Part shown: piece by piece, positions 24,750 through 33,470 of the stretch
Numbering within the stretch: the first letter of the stretch is position 1
How the letters are laid out: each line of letters begins with the position of its first letter
Assembly (NCBI GenBank): GCA_018399335.1
Contig: JAGYNM010000012.1
Coordinates: 1 to 33,470 of the forward strand
Length of the DNA stretch: 33,470 nt
From: Bacteroidales bacterium
GTDB taxonomy: Bacteria; Bacteroidota; Bacteroidia; Bacteroidales; F082
Reading direction: 5' to 3'
The notes under the pieces: model-generated
The model's database searches: none
Seen by the model: only the letters and a program-made list of their open reading frames with translations
Told to the model about the DNA's origin: nothing
Position numbers and translations under genes: made by a program

Positions 24750-24806
24750 TTTGGCATGCTTTATGATATACACTATTCATTCATTAACTTAAAAAAATCT
24801 AAAACA

Positions 24807-25154
24807 ATGGTTTTACCTACACCTTTAAAACATGTTGAAACAGCAGATCATCTGAATAAAATTATCAGCGAAAATGAAAATGTAATGGTTTGCTGTGGCC
24901 GTATGGGGCCTATGTGTATTCCGGTTTATGGCATAATGGAAGAACTACAGGAAGAATACAAGCATGTTGATTTCCGTGATATGCTTTTCGATTCACCTGA
25001 AGCACACATTATCCGCAACCTTCCCGAGTGCTCAAGCTTTATGGGTTTACCTTTTACTGTTTATTACAAAAACGGAAAAGTAGTTGCCGCAACCAGCAGC
25101 ATTCAAAACAGAGATCAAATCACCAGTATTCTTGACAAAGAATTTGGTAAGTAA
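24807..25154 (+). CDS. Atypical thioredoxin-family protein (CCGRMGPMC)
   Basis: The protein has 115 aa from the ATG at 24807; an upstream ATG at 24756 would add 17 residues unlike any thioredoxin start. The fold is thioredoxin-like: a strand VMV, an active-site loop, a helix IPVYGIMEELQEEY, and a cis-Pro motif MGLPFTVYYKNG (P82). The active site is not CxxC: it reads C29-C30-G-R-M-G-P-M-C37, so the nearest Cys pair is C30-x6-C37. C75 (LPECSS) is a further candidate thiol. Thioredoxin reductase is encoded 63 nt downstream, so this may be its dedicated partner. The upstream 25-nt repeat links it to the thioredoxin pair at 20121. Confidence 0.85.
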   Translation: MVLPTPLKHVETADHLNKIISENENVMVCCGRMGPMCIPVYGIMEELQEEYKHVDFRDMLFDSPEAHIIRNLPECSSFMGLPFTVYYKNGKVVAATSSIQNRDQITSILDKEFGK

Positions 25155-25217: not shown

Positions 25218-26171
25218 ATGGAAACCGTTCACTACGATAGTATAATAATAGGTGCCGGCCCTGCCGGACTCACTGCCGGAGTTTACCTTGCACGTGCCAA
25301 AGCCAAAACGCTTATTTTGGATTCGGGTGTAGCAGGAGGGCAAATGATTCTGACGCATGAAATAGCCAATTATCCTGGAATTGAATCAATTTCGGGTTAT
25401 GCGCTCAGCAACAATATGCGTAATCAAGCCAAGAAATTCGGCTGTGATATGCTTTCCGGCGTTTCAATCACTCAAATCGATTTTGAGTCCGAAATAAAAT
25501 CCCTTTCGCTCTCAAATGGCAAATCGTTTAGTGCCGACACCATCATTCTGGCAACAGGCGGTCGTTCGCGGACGCTTGGTGTACCCGGAGAAGCCAATTT
25601 CAAGGGACGTGGGATTTCCTATTGCGCTACATGTGATGGCGATTTTTTTCAGGATAAAGAAATAGCTGTCGTTGGCGGTGGTAATACAGCCCTCGAAGAA
25701 GCTGTTTCACTTACAAAATACGCTTCAAAAGTAACACTTATTCACCAGTTTGATCATTTCCAGGGATTTAAACATGCTGAGGATGAAGCCCGAAGCAACG
25801 AAAAAATCCATATCAATCTGAATAGCCGTATAGTTTCATTTAATGGCGAAGATAAGCTCACCAGCATAACCGTTGAAAATCTGTTGACCCACGAGCAATA
25901 TGATATCGGGCTGGATGGCGTATTTATCTTTATTGGTTATGAAGCCAATACGGATTTTCTGCAAGGCAGGTGCATCCATTTGAATGAAAGACAAGAAATT
26001 GTAACAGACAACAAGCTGCAAACCAATGTTCCCGGAGTATTTGCTGCCGGAGATGCCTTAGCAAAAAGGTTTCGGCAGATTACAACTGCAGTTTCTGATG
26101 GAACAATCGCAGCATTAAACGCGATGGAATACATCAACCAGAAAAAGCAAAAAGAGGCAGCACATCAATAA
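25218..26171 (+). CDS. trxB: Thioredoxin-disulfide reductase
   Basis: The protein has 317 aa, normal for the low-molecular-weight type. It carries the FAD-binding motif IIGAGPAGLTAG (residues 10-21), the redox-active dithiol in SYCATCDGDFF (about residues 136-139), the NADPH-binding VVGGGNTALEEA, and the C-terminal FAD motif GVFAAGDA followed by RQITTAVSDGTIAALNA. It transfers electrons from NADPH via FAD to thioredoxins in the cytoplasm; some members of the family use other donors. It follows the atypical thioredoxin gene, with a hairpin in between. The FMN riboswitch promoter lies about 35 nt after its stop and serves the next gene. Confidence 0.95.
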   Translation: METVHYDSIIIGAGPAGLTAGVYLARAKAKTLILDSGVAGGQMILTHEIANYPGIESISGYALSNNMRNQAKKFGCDMLSGVSITQIDFESEIKSLSLSNGKSFSADTIILATGGRSRTLGVPGEANFKGRGISYCATCDGDFFQDKEIAVVGGGNTALEEAVSLTKYASKVTLIHQFDHFQGFKHAEDEARSNEKIHINLNSRIVSFNGEDKLTSITVENLLTHEQYDIGLDGVFIFIGYEANTDFLQGRCIHLNERQEIVTDNKLQTNVPGVFAAGDALAKRFRQITTAVSDGTIAALNAMEYINQKKQKEAAHQ

Positions 26172-26204: not shown

Positions 26205-26236
26205 TTTGCTAACAAAAGAAAATAGAATTATTTTTG
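26205..26236 (+). promoter_or_regulatory. Promoter of the riboswitch transcript (TTTG / TATTTTTG)
   Basis: TTTG at 26205-26208 and TATTTTTG at 26229-26236 are separated by 20 bp, an exact match to the Bacteroidota -33/-7 pattern. The predicted start near 26243 falls a few bases before the first base pair of the FMN aptamer. Confidence 0.75.
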
Positions 26237-26245
26237 CCTCGTAAA

Positions 26246-26363
26246 TATTCTTCGGGGCAGGGTGAAATTCCCGATCGGCGGTAAAGTCCGCGAATCCTCC
26301 ACAAAAGGATTGAATCGTTGAAACTACGATACCGACAGTAATAGTCTGGATGGAAGAAGAATA
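26246..26363 (+). ncRNA. FMN riboswitch (RFN element)
   Basis: The conserved RFN core is directly readable: GGGGCAGGGTGAAATTCCCG at 26254-26273, GATCGGCGGTAAAGTCCGCG next, a variable hairpin (ATCCT/AGGAT), then CCGACAGT and AGTCTGGATGGAAGAAGAAT at the 3' side. Helix P1 pairs 26246-26253 with 26356-26363. It binds flavin mononucleotide. An intrinsic terminator 90 nt downstream (26453-26478) and the start codon at 26496 indicate control by premature termination: high FMN should switch the downstream TonB-dependent receptor off. RFN elements normally control riboflavin synthesis or uptake genes. Confidence 0.95.
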
Positions 26364-26452
26364 GCTTAATATGGTAACTGCCTTTGGGTTGAATCTGTCC
26401 TTTATTGGGGAGGTCTCTTTTCTGGCTGTATATCTATTAATTTAAAGTATTG

Positions 26453-26478
26453 CCCCGTAAGTATTTACGGGGTTTTTT
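26453..26478 (+). terminator. Terminator of the FMN riboswitch expression platform
   Basis: CCCCGTAA and TTACGGGG form a perfect 8-bp stem with a 4-nt loop, followed by six T residues. It lies between the aptamer and the receptor start codon (17 nt further), as expected for a transcriptional OFF switch. Confidence 0.9.
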
Positions 26479-26495
26479 AATTTAATAATACAGCA

Positions 26496-29060
26496 ATGAA
26501 AAGATTAATGCTTACGCTGATGCTTTTTTCCGGCATCCTGATTGCAAACGGACAACAACTACTAAGTGGGAAGGTATATCATCAACACACTAATGAGCCG
26601 CTCCCCTTCGTAAATATCAGTAACGGAAACCCCAAACAGGGTGCAAGCACAAATCTCAAAGGTCAATTCTCCATTCAAATTGACTCTCTCAATCAAGTCA
26701 TTTATATTTCGCATATTGGCTTTAAAGCGATTGAAATTGTTGTCAACCGCAAAAATCTGGATGAACTCCAAATTGGCTTGGAACCCGAAGAGATCAACCT
26801 TCAGGAAGTTAGTATCCTGGCTGAAGTTGCTCAGGAAAGGTATAATCCATTATCATTTAATCAAATTGATGCTCAAACTATTAGTAGTCGTTTGGGTGAT
26901 CGTACCCTGCCAGAAATTATGGAGCGAACACCAGGAGTTTATGGCAGCCGCAATGGTGGCGGTTCAGGTGATGCAAGTCTTTCCATAAGAGGCTTCAAGC
27001 AAGAAAATATTGCTGTACTACTTAATGGCGTGCCAATAAATGGCGCCGAAAATGGCCTGATTTACTGGAACAACTGGCTGGGACTTACCGAAGCAACTGC
27101 CGGTTTGCAGATACAACGTGGCATTGGAGCTTCCAAGGTAGCATTGAACTCAGTTGGAGGAACGGTTAACATCATAACGTCACAGGCATTTCCTAAAAAA
27201 CAAGGCTTTGTAAGTAGTAGCACCACATCTTATGGCAATCAAAAATTTACCTTAGGTTACCAGACAGGTCAAATGGAAAACGGCTGGAGCCTCTCCTTTT
27301 TAGGTTCGCGTTTAAGCGGCGATGGCTATGTTGATGCCACCTATGTAGATGCCTGGGCATATTTTTTTAGTGCTGGCAAAACATTCGGGAAAAACCAGAG
27401 GATTGTAATTACGCTGCTGGGCGGCCCAGAGCGGCATGGTCAACGAACCTTAAAACTTAGTCAAACAGAAATAGATGCACATGGAATAAAATTCAACAGA
27501 GACTGGGGCAGCTATAATGGCACAATCAACAATGCCTCAGAAAATTTTTATCATAAACCCCATTTATCTGTAAATCATTACTTAAACCTCAGCGAAAAAG
27601 TATATATAAATAACGCTGTTTATCTTTCACCTGGCTGGGGAGGCGGCAAATGGAATGATAGTTTTCAGTATGGACCAGCTGTTTTTGACTTCAGAAATCC
27701 TTCGGGACAGATCGACTGGTCAGGTATTTACCAATTTAATGCCAGTAATACCGACACCTTCCGGCTCGCAAATGGAAACGCGGTTAGTGGTTATTCAAAA
27801 CTTGTCCAGACACACTTTCTGGCCAGCCATTTTTGGGGCGGTTTGATGAGTACTGCCGAAATAAAACCCTCCAAAAACCACAAAATAATCACTGGTATTC
27901 ATTACCGCTATTTTCAATCATCACTAAAACAAAAAGTAAATGATTTGCTGGGTGGATCGTTTTATATTGACGATTATAGTTGGTCTCAAGCTGGAGTTGC
28001 CGGTCGCGAACAAATAAAAATGCCTGGCGATGTAATCCGCATCGACAATGGAGCATTGCTTCACCACACCAGTCTGTTTGCCCAATGGGAGTTTGAAACC
28101 GGGATATTTACAATTTTTGCAGGCGGTACAATATCTGATAATCGCTACCGAAGGCACGACAGTTACAACTACCCATCCGACAAATGGAGTGAGTGGATCA
28201 CACTGCCTGGTTTTGATGTTAAAGGAGGAGTGAATGTGAACGTCAATCAGCACCAACATATTTATGTGAATGGCGGACATTATAGCAAAGCTCCATATTA
28301 CAAATTTGTTTTTGGAAATAATACGAACACGCCTGTTACGGGAATTAAAAACGAAAAAGTTTCCACCCTGGAAATGGGATATGGCTTCAGAACCAATATG
28401 CTTCACCTCGGTTTGAATGCTTATTACACTTTCTGGCAGGATGTTTCCTTTTTGAACAATGAATATATTCAATTGGAGAATCAACTTCAGAGCAGAGCGA
28501 TGGTGCAAGGGCTGGATGCTTTGCATCAGGGGATTGAATTTGAAGGAAGCATAAAAATCAATAAACAAATTCGTTTGGGTTCCTACCTCTCGATGGGTAA
28601 CTGGCAATGGAAAAACGATGTGGAAGCCGTTCTTTTCAATAATCTAGATGTTGCTGTTGATACAGTTAATGTATTTGCAGACGGCCTAATGGTTGGCGGT
28701 CAACCTCAATTTCAGGCTGCTGTTTATCTTGATTTCAGGCTGTTCGATGTATTTGATTTAAAAGTCGACCTGACCCATTATGACAAACATTTTGCTGATT
28801 TTGCGCCAGACGGACGTCAAAATCCTGAAGACAAAGTTCAAAGCTACCAGATTCCGGCTTTTACGCTTTTAAATGTTCATCTTGGAACACAGCTAACGAT
28901 CGGAAAACTACCCTTGTCTATATATCTAAATGGCAATAATTTAACTAACACAATTTACATTCTGAAAGGAGAAGACGGCATGAATCATGACAATGAAAGC
29001 TTCAGAGGATTCTGGGGTTTTGGCAGAACTTTTGATTTGGGAATGAAACTTCACTTTTGA
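26496..29060 (+). CDS. TonB-dependent outer-membrane receptor, predicted flavin importer
   Basis: The protein has 854 aa. A signal peptide (MKRLMLTLMLFSGILIANGQ) is followed by a carboxypeptidase-regulatory-like beta-sandwich (about 20-105; SGKVYHQHTNEPLPFVNIS), the plug domain (about 115-230; LPEIMERTPGVYGSRNGG, LSIRGFKQENIAVLLNGVPI, SVGGTVNIITS) and a long beta-barrel ending GRTFDLGMKLHF with a terminal aromatic. Such receptors import bound ligands using TonB-ExbBD energy. The FMN riboswitch and terminator directly upstream imply control by flavin supply, so riboflavin or another flavin is the predicted ligand; this is inference from regulation, not from the barrel. No SusD-like gene accompanies it. 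No terminator hairpin is visible after the stop. Confidence 0.92.
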   Translation: MKRLMLTLMLFSGILIANGQQLLSGKVYHQHTNEPLPFVNISNGNPKQGASTNLKGQFSIQIDSLNQVIYISHIGFKAIEIVVNRKNLDELQIGLEPEEINLQEVSILAEVAQERYNPLSFNQIDAQTISSRLGDRTLPEIMERTPGVYGSRNGGGSGDASLSIRGFKQENIAVLLNGVPINGAENGLIYWNNWLGLTEATAGLQIQRGIGASKVALNSVGGTVNIITSQAFPKKQGFVSSSTTSYGNQKFTLGYQTGQMENGWSLSFLGSRLSGDGYVDATYVDAWAYFFSAGKTFGKNQRIVITLLGGPERHGQRTLKLSQTEIDAHGIKFNRDWGSYNGTINNASENFYHKPHLSVNHYLNLSEKVYINNAVYLSPGWGGGKWNDSFQYGPAVFDFRNPSGQIDWSGIYQFNASNTDTFRLANGNAVSGYSKLVQTHFLASHFWGGLMSTAEIKPSKNHKIITGIHYRYFQSSLKQKVNDLLGGSFYIDDYSWSQAGVAGREQIKMPGDVIRIDNGALLHHTSLFAQWEFETGIFTIFAGGTISDNRYRRHDSYNYPSDKWSEWITLPGFDVKGGVNVNVNQHQHIYVNGGHYSKAPYYKFVFGNNTNTPVTGIKNEKVSTLEMGYGFRTNMLHLGLNAYYTFWQDVSFLNNEYIQLENQLQSRAMVQGLDALHQGIEFEGSIKINKQIRLGSYLSMGNWQWKNDVEAVLFNNLDVAVDTVNVFADGLMVGGQPQFQAAVYLDFRLFDVFDLKVDLTHYDKHFADFAPDGRQNPEDKVQSYQIPAFTLLNVHLGTQLTIGKLPLSIYLNGNNLTNTIYILKGEDGMNHDNESFRGFWGFGRTFDLGMKLHF

Positions 29061-29208: not shown

Positions 29209-29216
29209 TATTTTTG
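29209..29216 (+). promoter_or_regulatory. -7 box TATTTTTG of the Oar-type gene
   Basis: TATTTTTG fits TAnnTTTG and overlaps the in-frame TTG at 29214, so the start at 29256 with its signal peptide is the right one. The leader is about 33 nt. Confidence 0.6.
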
Positions 29217-29255: not shown

Positions 29256-32200
29256 ATGAAAAAAAACCTACTCATCAGCTTTTTAGCAGTTTTGATGATT
29301 TTCGGTTGGCAAAATGTTTTTGCTCAAGGCACAACTACTTCCGGTATGAACGGAAGGGTTTTTGATAGCGAAGGCGAAACACTTCCCGGAGCAACTGTTG
29401 TTGTTTTGGATTTACCTACCGGAACTCAGTTTGGTACTGTAACAGATGCTAGCGGTTACTATAGGATCCCGAACATGAACGTTGGTGGTCCCTACAAAGT
29501 AACTGTTTCATTTGTTGGTTTTCAACCTTATGTGAAGGATGATATTTTCCTCACGCTTGGTCAGACTTTAAAACTAGATGTTAAGCTCAGCGAATCAGCC
29601 ATCACACTTGCCGATGTGGAAGTTGTAGCTTCCCTGAACGACATCTTCGATGGTAACCGTACAGGTGCTGAAACTTACGTTAGTAACGCTGAAATTGGCA
29701 AGCTGCCAACACTCAGCCGTTCAATCGGTGATTTTGTTCGCTTAACACCTCAAGCCAGCGTTAGTGGTGGTTCAGGAGCAATTACAGTTGCCGGTATCAA
29801 CAACCGCTACAATGCTATCTCGTTTGACGGTGCTGTGAACAACGACGTATTTGGCTTGGCTGCATCAGGAACAAACGGCGGTCAAACAGGTGGCACACCA
29901 ATCAGCTTGGATGCTATCGACCAGTTCCAGATCGTAATTGCCCCTTATGATGTACGTCAGGGCGGATTTGCAGGTGCAAGTATTAATGCTGTAACCCGTC
30001 GTGGTACAAACGAATTTGAAGGTTCAGCTTATATGCTTTATCGTAACGAAAGTCTTGCAGGTAAAACGCCTGGTGAAGGTGTAGAAGACCGAACTAAATT
30101 GGATGAATTTACTGCCAAAACCTACGGCATGCGCGTTGGCGGCCCCATCATCAAAAATAAACTCTTCTTCTTCCTGAACGCTGAGTTCCAACGTGATGAA
30201 ACCCCACAGCCTTTCAGCTTTGCTGATTATACAGGAAATTCAACTCAGGCAGAGTTGGATGCATTTGCCGCTAAACTCGGAACCTACGGATACGATCCAG
30301 GTGGTTTCCTGAACAATACCCGTGAATTGAACAGTGATAAATTCTTGGCGCGATTCGATTACAACATCAGTAAAAATCACAAACTTACTCTCCGTCACTC
30401 ATATACCAAAAGCACCTCTGTTGGTCCCAGCCGTTCTTCAAGCCGATCGATCAACTATTACAATAGAGGAGTTTTCTTTCCAAGTACTACAAACTCTACA
30501 GCACTCGAATTGAAGAGTAACTGGAACACCATGTCAAACAATTTGATCATTGGGTACACAACTGTACGCGACCAACGCGACCCAATGGGTGATAAATTCC
30601 CAAATTTGATCATTTATGATGGTGCAGGAACGATTAATGCAGGATCTGAGCCTTATTCAACAGGTAACCAGCTTGATCAGGACATTTTAACCATCAATGA
30701 CAATTTCACCATTTATAAAGGTGCACATACAGTTACTTTTGGGGCTAACATTGAGTATGGCCAAACTTATAATCTCTTTATGCGTAAAGCCTTTGGTGAA
30801 TATCGCTTCAATTCACTGGCCGATTTTATGTCAGGAGCTCCTGCATTCCAATATGAAAGAGGATATTCATTGGTTGACAATATCGTAGGCGACGGATCAG
30901 CTGCTGCTGCTGACTTCCGCACTATGCAGTATGGACTTTACATTCAGGATGAATGGCAACTTACAGACAACTTTAAACTTACAGCAGGTTTACGTTTCGA
31001 TGTTCCTCAATATCTTGACACACCAAATGCTGGAAGTAACCAGGCTGTATGGGATGATTTCAACAACAACACCATTCCTTTGATCGAATCTTATGGTTAT
31101 GACCTGAAGGATGCCAAAATTGGTGAAATGCCAAAAGCTTATGTAAGTGTTAACCCACGTCTTGGTTTCAACTGGGATGTTTATGGTGATCAAACGACAC
31201 AACTTCGTGGTGGAATCGGATTGTTCACAAGCCGTCTGCCTTTGGTATGGCCAGGAGGTTCTTATACCAATAATGGTGTAACTGTTGGTGGTGTTTATTA
31301 TAGAGGTGATGTTGATTTCAGGCCACAATGGGACAACCAATATACTGCAACTGATTTTGGTCAGGCAGATGCTATCCCAAGCGGTCAGGTTGACTTGTTT
31401 GCAAAAGACTTCAAAAATCCTCAGGTACTCAGAACAAGCCTTGGTCTCGATCACAAACTGCCTTGGTGGGGATTAGTAGGATCTGTTGAAGCTATCTATA
31501 CTAAAAACATCAACAATGTAATTTACTATGATGTTAACCAAAAACCAGCATACGGAACTACTGTAAACAATGGTCCTGATCATCGTCCTTACTACCCAGG
31601 TGAACGCATTGAAGGTAATTACACCCGTATCATTTATGGTACAAACACAAACGAAGGATACACTTACAACTTAACTGCTCAGGTTACCAAACCTTTAAGT
31701 AAAGGATTAAGTGGGACACTGGCTTATACTTTTGGCCGTGCAACTTCGCTGAATGATGGTACTTCCTCACAAAACAGCTCACAATGGCGGTATATGGAGA
31801 ATGTTCGTGGTCTGAACCACCTTGATCGCAGCTATTCTGACTTTGATTTGGGCAGCCGTGTATTGGCTTTCGTATCTTATCGTTTAGAGTATGCTAATAA
31901 TTTCGCTACTACTTTGAGTCTTGTTTACAACGGACAAAGCGGACAACGCTACTCATACGTATACAACGACCGTGGTAATATAAATGGTGAAGGCGAAAAT
32001 GCTGGTAACCTGATTTGGATTCCTGCAAACCAAAGTCAAATCAACCTCGTTGATATGCTTGATGATGATGGTAATGTTACAAAAACTGCTGCACAACAAT
32101 GGGCTGACCTGAATAGCTTTATCGAAAGCGATAAATACCTCAGCGAAAACCGTGGTGATTATGCAGTTAGAAACGGAAGTCGTCTTCCTTTCGAAAGCGT

Positions 32201-32501
32201 AATTGATTTAAAACTTGTACAGGACTTCTTTATCAACGCTTCAGGAAAACGTCATAACCTGCAGTTGACTTTGGATATCTTTAACTTCACTAATCTGCTC
32301 AACCCAGAATGGGGTATCCGTCGTTATATCTCATACGATGCACTTCAGCTTGTTGACTATGAAGGCACTGATGTAGATGGTAAAGCAACCTTTAGCTACA
32401 GCGGTCCTGCTGATGTTGAAGAAGTTTACAATGTAAGCGATGTGGGCATCTACGGTTCACGTTGGACTGGTCAGATTGGTATCAGATACATCTTTAACTA
32501 A
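29256..32501 (+). CDS. Oar-type TonB-dependent outer-membrane protein
   Basis: The protein has 1081 aa. The start at 29256 gives a clear signal peptide (MKKNLLISFLAVLMIFGWQN, then VFAQ). A carboxypeptidase-regulatory domain (about 28-112; GRVFDSEGETLPGATVVVLD) is followed by a plug-like region rich in small residues (LPTLSRSIGDFVRLTPQASV; ITVAGINNRYNAISFDGAVN; IDQFQIVIAPYDVRQGGFAG) typical of Oar proteins, and a large barrel ending WTGQIGIRYIF. Oar of Myxococcus is required for development and protein secretion; Bacteroidota homologues are abundant outer-membrane proteins of mostly unknown substrate. No SusD partner follows. A strong terminator ends the transcript, so it is monocistronic. Confidence 0.92.
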   Translation: MKKNLLISFLAVLMIFGWQNVFAQGTTTSGMNGRVFDSEGETLPGATVVVLDLPTGTQFGTVTDASGYYRIPNMNVGGPYKVTVSFVGFQPYVKDDIFLTLGQTLKLDVKLSESAITLADVEVVASLNDIFDGNRTGAETYVSNAEIGKLPTLSRSIGDFVRLTPQASVSGGSGAITVAGINNRYNAISFDGAVNNDVFGLAASGTNGGQTGGTPISLDAIDQFQIVIAPYDVRQGGFAGASINAVTRRGTNEFEGSAYMLYRNESLAGKTPGEGVEDRTKLDEFTAKTYGMRVGGPIIKNKLFFFLNAEFQRDETPQPFSFADYTGNSTQAELDAFAAKLGTYGYDPGGFLNNTRELNSDKFLARFDYNISKNHKLTLRHSYTKSTSVGPSRSSSRSINYYNRGVFFPSTTNSTALELKSNWNTMSNNLIIGYTTVRDQRDPMGDKFPNLIIYDGAGTINAGSEPYSTGNQLDQDILTINDNFTIYKGAHTVTFGANIEYGQTYNLFMRKAFGEYRFNSLADFMSGAPAFQYERGYSLVDNIVGDGSAAAADFRTMQYGLYIQDEWQLTDNFKLTAGLRFDVPQYLDTPNAGSNQAVWDDFNNNTIPLIESYGYDLKDAKIGEMPKAYVSVNPRLGFNWDVYGDQTTQLRGGIGLFTSRLPLVWPGGSYTNNGVTVGGVYYRGDVDFRPQWDNQYTATDFGQADAIPSGQVDLFAKDFKNPQVLRTSLGLDHKLPWWGLVGSVEAIYTKNINNVIYYDVNQKPAYGTTVNNGPDHRPYYPGERIEGNYTRIIYGTNTNEGYTYNLTAQVTKPLSKGLSGTLAYTFGRATSLNDGTSSQNSSQWRYMENVRGLNHLDRSYSDFDLGSRVLAFVSYRLEYANNFATTLSLVYNGQSGQRYSYVYNDRGNINGEGENAGNLIWIPANQSQINLVDMLDDDGNVTKTAAQQWADLNSFIESDKYLSENRGDYAVRNGSRLPFESVIDLKLVQDFFINASGKRHNLQLTLDIFNFTNLLNPEWGIRRYISYDALQLVDYEGTDVDGKATFSYSGPADVEEVYNVSDVGIYGSRWTGQIGIRYIFN

Positions 32502-32591: not shown

Positions 32592-33470
32592 ATGAATAAA
32601 GCGCTATTTTTTACCCTGTTGATAAGCCTTACAGGCATTTTCAGTTGTACCCAAATTAGTCAGGACGATAAAAACGAGGAGCGAATTCTCGTTGTTTTGT
32701 CACTCGATGGTTTCCGCTGGGATTATCCCGATCGATTTGGAGCCCCCAACCTGAGCCAAATGGCAAGCCAAGGCGTTAAAGCAGAAAGAATGATACCCAG
32801 TTTTCCATCCACTACCTTTGCCAATCATTATACCATGGCAACCGGATTATATCCTGATCATCATGGAATCCTGGTGAACAGATTTTATGAGCCGATTCTT
32901 AAAGAGACCTATAACGAGCCAGGCAAAAGAAGCACTGTGGAAGAAGGAAAGTTTTACGGAGGAGAACCCATTTGGGTAACAGCCGAAAAGCAAGGACTAA
33001 AAACCGCTACCTATTTTTGGGTAGGCAGTGAAGCTGACGTTCAAGGCGTTAGACCTACCTACTGGAAAAGATACGAACATAATTTCCCTTACGAACAAAG
33101 ACTCGATACCGTAATCGCATGGCTCAACATGCCAGAAGAAAAACGACCACGTCTGATAATGTGGTACTTTGACGAACCCGATTCAAGCGGACATCGTTTT
33201 GGCCCCGAAAACGATAGCCTTCAGCCTGTGATTCATAGGGTTGACAGTTTGGTTGGGGTATTTCGGAAAAAACTGGCAACACTTCCCATTGCCGACAAAG
33301 TTGATTTTATCGTCCTTTCGGATCATGGAATGGCTACCCTGTCTACAGATCGTCAGATCATTTTAGATCAATATGTTGACACTAGCATGATAACACTTAT
33401 CGATGGCTGGAATCCAACAATGAACCTGATTGTGAAGGATGAATTTAAGGAAGAAGTTTATGATGCTTTT
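32592..33470 (+). CDS. Lipoprotein nucleotide pyrophosphatase/phosphodiesterase (ENPP-like), 3' end missing
   Basis: 293 codons are visible before the window ends; the family usually has about 400-430 residues. The N-terminus MNKALFFTLLISLTGIFSC is a lipoprotein signal with Cys19. The alkaline-phosphatase-superfamily metal site is visible: D39 in VLSLDGF, nucleophile Thr75 with N78 in STTFANHYTMATGLYP, the DEPDSSGHRFGP motif, and LSDHGM. Type I phosphodiesterases of this kind hydrolyse nucleotide pyrophosphates or phosphodiesters in the periplasm or at the surface, possibly for phosphate or nucleoside scavenging. A degenerate -7 box TATTTTCG lies at 32560-32567, after the upstream terminator. 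Confidence 0.92.
   Translation, partial: MNKALFFTLLISLTGIFSCTQISQDDKNEERILVVLSLDGFRWDYPDRFGAPNLSQMASQGVKAERMIPSFPSTTFANHYTMATGLYPDHHGILVNRFYEPILKETYNEPGKRSTVEEGKFYGGEPIWVTAEKQGLKTATYFWVGSEADVQGVRPTYWKRYEHNFPYEQRLDTVIAWLNMPEEKRPRLIMWYFDEPDSSGHRFGPENDSLQPVIHRVDSLVGVFRKKLATLPIADKVDFIVLSDHGMATLSTDRQIILDQYVDTSMITLIDGWNPTMNLIVKDEFKEEVYDAF

Follow-up and report, generated by a model that had tools for sequence, protein, structure and literature searches.

TonB-dependent receptors for vitamin B12 stand under the control of cobalamin riboswitches. OMthi of Bacteroides thetaiotaomicron is described as a TonB-dependent receptor which, with PnuT, serves thiamine, the two genes lying near each other (PMC6977713), and PqqU (YncD) is described as the receptor for pyrroloquinoline quinone (PQQ; PDB 9c4o; PMC12124388). 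The riboflavin transporters described as controlled by the flavin mononucleotide (FMN) riboswitch, or RFN element, are RibU, RibM, RibN, ImpX and RibXY (PMC4418817), and in the accessible text of that article on RFN-linked transporters the terms 'TonB' and 'outer membrane' occur 0 times. Here we analyze a stretch of Bacteroidales DNA of 33,470 nucleotides (nt; contig JAGYNM010000012.1 of assembly GCA_018399335.1; 'the window' denotes the whole of this stretch) in which an FMN riboswitch directly precedes a gene for a TonB-dependent receptor that we call T1. Reasoning from sequence comparison, we consider it very probable that the window encodes an outer-membrane flavin importer under riboswitch control, serving in place of riboflavin synthesis.

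In the accessible part of one regulon study no FMN regulon is reported for Bacteroidaceae (PMC3766115), and the words 'flavin' and 'riboflavin' are absent from the accessible part of a 2024 review of TonB receptors (PMC11658791). Among the matches listed for literature on flavins with TonB or the outer membrane and on FMN riboswitches, no title or abstract opening names an outer-membrane flavin receptor, in keeping with an earlier note on this DNA, which knew of no characterized flavin TonB receptor; subscription papers lie mostly outside this scope, and absence in print is not proven. Nor do the titles and openings searched describe how riboflavin passes the outer membrane of Gram-negative auxotrophs.

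The switch and the receptor

The switch and the gene behind it comprise the following elements.

26205-26236, plus strand: promoter of Bacteroidota type, TTTG-N20-TATTTTTG, found by pattern match, 7 nt 5' of the aptamer
26244-26365, plus strand: FMN riboswitch aptamer (RFN element), RF00050, 115.2 bits, full length
26253-26259, plus strand: CGGGGCA, 5' strand of the aptamer and proposed anti-terminator strand, exact complement of UGCCCCG at 26451-26457, with covariation across leaders
26451-26478, plus strand: intrinsic terminator, 9-bp hairpin plus T run, -13.8 kcal/mol, ending 17 nt before the start codon
26496-29060, plus strand: T1, TonB-dependent receptor of 854 amino acids (aa), predicted outer-membrane flavin importer (PF13715, PF07715; fold; tree group)

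The aptamer begins 72 nt past the stop codon of a thioredoxin reductase gene and is complete, as the earlier note had stated: a covariance-model scan with RF00050 matches it across model positions 1-138, the score of 115.2 bits comparing with a gathering score of 66.2 (E 2e-26). This is the sole Rfam match at gathering score within the window, and the assembly to which the window belongs (225 contigs, 77% complete) yielded no second FMN switch.

We take TTTG-N20-TATTTTTG to be the Bacteroidota promoter consensus. Across the whole window this pattern is no more frequent than chance predicts, with 3 occurrences against an expected 1.71 and as many as 3 in 25 of 100 shuffles. In a search region of 80 nt upstream of the switch plus 10 nt, 60 of 64 loci from the window's family have the -7 box TAnnTTTG close to the switch's 5' end, versus 56 of 1280 random 90-nt windows from the same loci; for the complete two-part pattern the figures are 12 of 64 versus 1 of 1280 control windows. 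The promoter call at 26205-26236 is sound because the -7 box is conserved next to the switch across the family, although its earlier description as 'near-perfect' was too generous. The intrinsic terminator noted previously is recovered by a terminator search, which finds one hairpin between 26100 and 26600 (26452-26473, with a T run to 26478) compared with a shuffle mean of 0.3.

The coupling of this terminator to the aptamer was assessed across leaders drawn from 64 loci of the family, 40 of the order and 73 of the named set, with the cut-off locus L117 excluded. Setting aside four leaders without a readable core and removing duplicates gave 125 distinct leaders, 88 of which contain the required pattern of a GCCCN hairpin before a T run (T5). 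In these 88 the variable aptamer base and the variable arm base are A-T in 46, G-C in 29 and G-T in 6, with exceptions in A-C (6) and G-G (1), a distribution that favors base pairing (Fisher p 2e-11, G-G left out). Thinning to one leader per group and state, the sole correction for kinship in these statistics, leaves A-T 19, G-C 13, G-T 5, A-C 1 and G-G 1 (p 2e-5). The arrangement is seen alike at T1-type loci and at rib-type loci, where riboflavin synthesis genes follow the switch. Terminator and complementary strand thus form an expression platform coupled to the aptamer, and we propose from their covariation, which is of the kind an FMN-off switch requires, that in the absence of ligand the aptamer strand breaks up the terminator. 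With ample FMN in the cytoplasm, the aptamer would be occupied, the terminator would form and the receptor gene would be silent; when FMN is scarce, CGGGGCA of the aptamer would pair with the terminator 5' arm UGCCCCG, no terminator would form and T1 would be made.

The receptor is of the length and type reported earlier, its open reading frame (26496-29060) encoding CarbopepD_reg_2 (PF13715) and TonB Plug (PF07715, 45.8 bits, cut-off 23.9) domains, both over cut-off. An AlphaFold2 model (predicted local distance difference test score 74.7; predicted template-modeling score 0.72) has a confident barrel and a weak plug. Its best Foldseek match in the PDB is PqqU with PQQ (9c4o; E 2.8e-35, 13% identity), and the 50 best-listed matches are all TonB receptors by title; as modeled, T1 has the beta-barrel-with-plug fold of TonB-dependent receptors. 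The closest solved chain by sequence is 9gbc_A, over the N-terminal part of that chain. No SusD lipoprotein partner adjoins T1 in the window, the flanking genes being those for thioredoxin reductase (TrxB) and an Oar-like receptor.

In a tree built by a quick method, 49 RFN-linked receptors, 31 from the window's family and 18 from 12 other family groups, form one group with support 100. One RFN-linked receptor, from family group f105, is placed among T2, a paralogue of T1, and T2-type receptors can therefore also stand behind the switch. The tree leaves out, through a length and motif filter, the receptors of f66 (786-815 aa) and partial receptors; those of f101 are also not placed. Twelve polar or aromatic positions are kept in at least 93% of the 49 T1-group sequences and in at most 25% of 21 T2-type sequences; these are candidate cargo contacts, to be treated as leads only.

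Receptor and riboflavin synthesis among relatives

RFN elements are present in 89 of 149 genomes of the window's family, one in each at E up to 0.001. Behind them stand T1 in 53 genomes, ribD over cut-off in 33, a degenerate ribD in one and a contig end in two. The loci were read in 64 of the 89; the remaining 25, all of genus g14, were typed by coordinates, the ribD match directly following the switch on its contig and strand. Among the loci read, a T1 homologue is the first gene in 53, spread over 13 genera and with 39-80% identity in the best segment, nine are rib-type, and two contigs end early. One rib-type genome (G007, L036) has degenerate ribD and ribH genes, the latter with stop codons, yet its RFN element is still over cut-off.

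The presence of T1 coincides with loss of riboflavin synthesis, for which we searched the family for RibD, RibH, RibB and RibF. RibD is over cut-off in 33 of the 149 genomes and in 0 of the 53 with T1; 114 further genomes have RibD matches below cut-off, which, among the matches listed, cover mostly the first 140 of 343 positions. RibH occurs in 35 of the 149 (the 33 RibD genomes, G007 and G052), and thus in one of 53 T1 genomes. A subset of 37 genomes was searched for the other two proteins, its 24 T1-type members being 23 with T1 read plus G008, where 176 nt separate the switch from the contig end. RibB is found in 0/24 T1-type, 6/6 rib-type and 0/7 switch-less genomes, and RibF in 24/24, 4/6 and 7/7, respectively. 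The two rib-type genomes without a RibF match (G016 and G079; 91% and 87% complete) are perhaps missing contigs. In G002, a T1 genome in one contig of 3.27 Mb, RibF is present and there is no RibB, RibH, or RibD over cut-off. Since RibF is kept and the synthesis genes searched for are missing, T1 carriers seem to be auxotrophic for riboflavin yet able to convert it to FMN and FAD (flavin adenine dinucleotide). The earlier note had proposed comparing receptor occurrence with incomplete rib pathways, and within the family the two do go together; such co-occurrence is not universal among known RFN-controlled riboflavin transporters. In a T1-profile search, all eight T1 genomes score above 1300 bits, and four rib-type and nine switch-less genomes score at most 812.

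The relation between operon and receptor is most direct in genus g7. The loci of G069 (T1) and G045 (rib) are homologous through trxB and the switch (71-73% nt identity), differ between the switch and T2, where G045 has ribDEBAH, and become homologous again from T2 onwards (79% nt, T2 86% aa). Operon and receptor are thus exchanged at one slot behind one switch, with no direction implied. T1 would take the place of the riboflavin operon, the same riboswitch preceding either ribD-ribE-ribBA-ribH or T1 among relatives.

Within the window's order, RFN elements occur in 65 of 294 genomes at 66 places, with a receptor first at 28, rib genes at 35 and an unclear gene at three (Oar-like in G676; partial at contig ends in G778 and G799). 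The 28 receptor places include that of the window and one split T1 frame and represent 16 family groups, the window's among them; four family groups contain both receptor and rib states. In a sample of the phylum, which contained few genomes of the window's order, RFN is found in 28 of 392 genomes; apart from the window, each of the other 27 has an identified rib gene, ribD or a ribB/ribBA-like one, behind one RFN place. A phylum-wide linkage of RFN and receptor is hence unsupported. One of the phylum genomes (G387) has two RFN places, both below cut-off, and at L198, one of the two, no gene could be identified. Filtering was stricter in the RFN scans of family and phylum, at the cost of weak matches. 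In these samples, receptor linkage is confined to the order Bacteroidales.

A profile of 28 T1 proteins returned 260 relatives in genome_contigs, the best 80 of which were kept as named loci. These 80 are, by title, all from metagenome-assembled genomes, mostly Bacteroidales/Bacteroidetes with two Lentimicrobium and three Chlorobiota, and many of the genomes overlap with the family and order samples. With an RFN model of our own, the switch is recovered upstream in 74 of the 80; five of the other six begin inside the receptor gene, giving 74 of 75 with upstream sequence. The wider search for RFN-linked receptors that the earlier note had suggested has thus returned 53 of 89 family switches, 27 order places besides the window and 74 of 75 evaluable named loci with a receptor gene directly behind the RFN element, a placement conserved among relatives. 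This recurring linkage, together with the loss of rib genes in the family, supports the TonB-driven flavin uptake that was predicted for the receptor, with regulation and auxotrophy pointing to riboflavin, FMN or FAD as the ligand.

Gene neighborhood, cargo and alternative explanations

Four further genes of the window belong to a conserved neighborhood around the switch.

24756-25154, plus strand: small thioredoxin-like protein (by eye), conserved neighbor in synteny cluster c2, no Pfam/NCBIfam match
25218-26171, plus strand: TrxB, thioredoxin reductase, not under the switch (TIGR01292, 351.5 bits, cut-off 343.45; synteny)
29256-32501, plus strand: Oar-like TonB receptor (PF25183, PF13620; synteny), the ATG start being preferred over the listed TTG at 29214
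32592-33470, plus strand: NPP, type I phosphodiesterase/nucleotide pyrophosphatase, predicted lipoprotein (by eye; PF01663, 273 bits, cut-off 23), truncated by the contig end

The recurring order is an HD protein, an NlpC/P60 protein, the small thioredoxin-like protein (by eye), TrxB, RFN, and then T1 or ribD-ribE-ribBA-ribH; TrxB is the upstream neighbor at many T1-type and two rib-type loci. The upstream part differs in several genera (g3, g5, g10, g11, g12 and g14). On the 3' side of T1 or the rib operon comes another receptor, either T2 or Oar-like, followed by NPP and, in many cases, a PhoD-like phosphatase; in the window the conserved neighborhood extends past the Oar-like gene to NPP at the contig end. 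The Oar-like gene occupies the place held by T2 in other genera and has a TAnnTTTG box immediately upstream (by eye). Given this promoter-like box of its own and the presence of T2 in the same place elsewhere, we rejected it as part of the switch transcript, and the earlier statement that only one gene lies downstream fits the transcript as far as can be judged from sequence. At one locus (L222), the gene behind RFN is for an Oar-like receptor with 34% identity to the window's Oar-like protein, and because the contig ends within it only the N-terminus is present; in light of this locus, Oar-like receptors may also be flavin-linked.

The import route would then run as follows. T1 at the outer membrane, acting inwards and driven by TonB, would capture riboflavin, or else FMN or FAD to be trimmed to riboflavin by surface or periplasmic enzymes, for delivery to the periplasm; a separate inner-membrane carrier would pass riboflavin to the cytoplasm, where RibF would convert it to FMN and FAD. 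If flavin uptake is granted, riboflavin is the likelier main cargo, ahead of FMN and FAD; this assessment and that of flavin uptake itself are judgements and were not computed.

The main competitor, which we regard as possible though doubtful, is that T1 carries FAD or FMN in preference to free riboflavin, and that these are cut down to riboflavin by the NPP lipoprotein and the PhoD-like phosphatase ahead of the inner-membrane step. NPP is a possible FAD-cleaving enzyme, making FAD/FMN salvage possible; an NPP homologue is present in 20/20 extended loci and a PhoD-like phosphatase in 13/20, and in G082, a genome with neither rib genes nor switch, an NPP-family gene lies between those for PnuC-type and EamA-type carriers. 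Periplasmic cleavage of FAD to FMN is described in Treponema, by a protein family other than NPP (PMC4767422). However, two of the 20 extended loci are rib-type (G045 and G016), and because NPP and PhoD also stand behind these rib operons, and so are not specific to T1, a flavin role for either is only a guess. Moreover, G056, of the window's genus, has NPP without an adjoining PhoD; an NPP gene next to one for a PnuC-type carrier may just as well point to salvage of nicotinamide adenine dinucleotide (NAD); and NPPs act on many nucleotides. Still more broadly, and with rather more doubt than confidence, one may picture that Bacteroidales repeatedly swapped vitamin B2 synthesis for high-affinity outer-membrane uptake behind one FMN switch, and that the conserved block of T1, T2 or Oar-like receptor, NPP and PhoD is a complete locus for scavenging flavins, with FAD and FMN cut back to riboflavin on the cell surface.

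Several observations weigh against T1 as a flavin importer in place of synthesis, foremost those concerning the inner membrane. Profile searches with PF03825, PF12822 and PF04973 identified no inner-membrane riboflavin carrier for the window's genus. NHS/NupG-like carriers (PF03825) occur in 20 of 38 genomes tested and in 0 of 6 of that genus; RibU-type energy-coupling factor proteins (PF12822) are matched in 8 of 38, over cut-off in one, which is rib-type, and below it in every T1-type genome tested. The PnuC family (PF04973) is present in 35 of 38, rib-type and T1-type alike, and was dropped as a riboflavin carrier: it looks nicotinamide-linked, a small ATP-binding protein adjoining the PnuC homologue in eight of nine non-g14 loci read (by eye; AAA_28 in the one tested). 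This ATP-binding protein is presumably tied to NadR and nicotinamide riboside. The 16 PnuC regions fetched contain no Rfam switch over threshold, and no carrier gene was recognized beside T1 in the window.

Other points on the same side concern the genomic and structural evidence. RFN, RibB and a strong T1 are all missing from five g14 genomes that are 99-100% complete; as such genomes also lack rib genes, a second riboflavin route must exist and T1 is not the only one. G052, which carries T1, has RibH on a different contig and no RibD match above its cut-off. In G738, one contig has RFN-ribD and a second has RFN ahead of a split T1 frame. Rib-gene absence from T1 genomes is shown inside the family only. 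L125, a T1 homologue with a spacer of about 70 nt and no switch, is a true exception; it is the one switch-less case among the 75 named loci with upstream sequence, and the pattern that the earlier note named as counting against it, homologues consistently linked to another ligand without RFN elements, was not found. The 37 of 125 distinct leaders without the terminator pattern have a platform that the covariation table does not cover. Finally, PqqU is one of 400 fold matches to T1 at E up to 0.001, with 13% identity, and the plug is poorly modeled.

Some further observations touch these subjects. At the split T1 frame of G738 (L263, L212), T2 and NPP follow, and either T1 is decaying where synthesis is present or the assembly is at fault. 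Some switch-less genomes may miss the locus through assembly gaps, as in G026, where T2 starts near a contig end. A tblastn search with the PF03825 carrier over 279 loci found one behind an RFN-linked receptor, in G655 only: in this 1.5 Mb genome (L274, 1684-5369) a carrier of the PF03825 nucleoside-symporter family follows the receptor with about 50 nt between, making it a candidate inner-membrane flavin carrier on grounds of gene order. In switch-less, rib-less g14 genomes (L310, 3597-5230; L312, 2457-5016) a second PnuC-type transporter stands beside an EamA permease, with the NPP-family gene of G082 lying between the two in L312; this pair is possibly an RFN-free flavin route, or serves NAD salvage.

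That T1 imports something else needed at low flavin, such as iron or another cofactor, with FMN only a signal, we consider improbable. TonB receptors for iron complexes are common, and cross-regulation of riboflavin and iron metabolism has been described (PMC6041382). Against this, T1 occupies the slot of the rib operon and occurs where synthesis has been lost, RFN control is maintained across the T1 group, and a strong T1 is found in 0 of the 4 rib-type genomes tested. More improbable still is that T1 is a bystander, an unrelated receptor that landed behind a riboswitch left over from a lost rib operon. TrxB and NPP are common to T1-type and rib-type loci, indicating that the locus predates the exchange, but the receptor follows the switch in 53 genomes belonging to 13 genera, the RFN-linked receptors of 12 further family groups share its tree group (with f105 among T2, and f66 and f101 not placed), and terminator and antiterminator are preserved through compensating changes. 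We found nothing in favor of the least probable proposal, that T1 exports flavins or serves extracellular electron transfer, the nearest point being that flavin shuttles occur in other bacteria; TonB-dependent receptors are importers, and the T1 genomes tested are without rib genes and hence have no surplus to export.

Comparison with known systems

If T1 is indeed a flavin importer, it would be the first with such a cargo among TonB receptors. The locus offers a receptor group, a natural experiment in which rib operon and receptor alternate behind the same switch in one genus, and a regulated readout, as well as an FMN-off switch with proposed wiring before a surface receptor gene. It also predicts that many uncultured Bacteroidales are vitamin B2 auxotrophs dependent on their neighbors, which bears on cross-feeding and on culturing.

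The known systems resemble T1 in different respects. RibU, RibM, RibN, ImpX and RibXY share with it, as described, a gene for riboflavin uptake (predicted in the case of T1) under an FMN riboswitch; unlike T1 as predicted, they are not known to be outer-membrane receptors. PqqU is likewise a TonB receptor with a soluble redox cofactor as its described cargo and is the best fold match of the T1 model, but the two are only 13% identical over the alignment and the cofactor is different; we know of no riboswitch for PqqU. OMthi is, by its description, a Bacteroidota outer-membrane vitamin receptor like T1, but is for thiamine and is encoded near its inner-membrane partner, a carrier of which T1 shows no recognized counterpart alongside. 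BtuB differs in riboswitch and cargo, and the T1 scores of 45.3 bits for TIGR01779 (cut-off 599.7) and 30.1 for NF007926 (cut-off 836) set the proteins apart; yet in their logic BtuB and the other B12 TonB receptors are like T1, each being a vitamin receptor under a riboswitch that senses the cofactor made from that vitamin.

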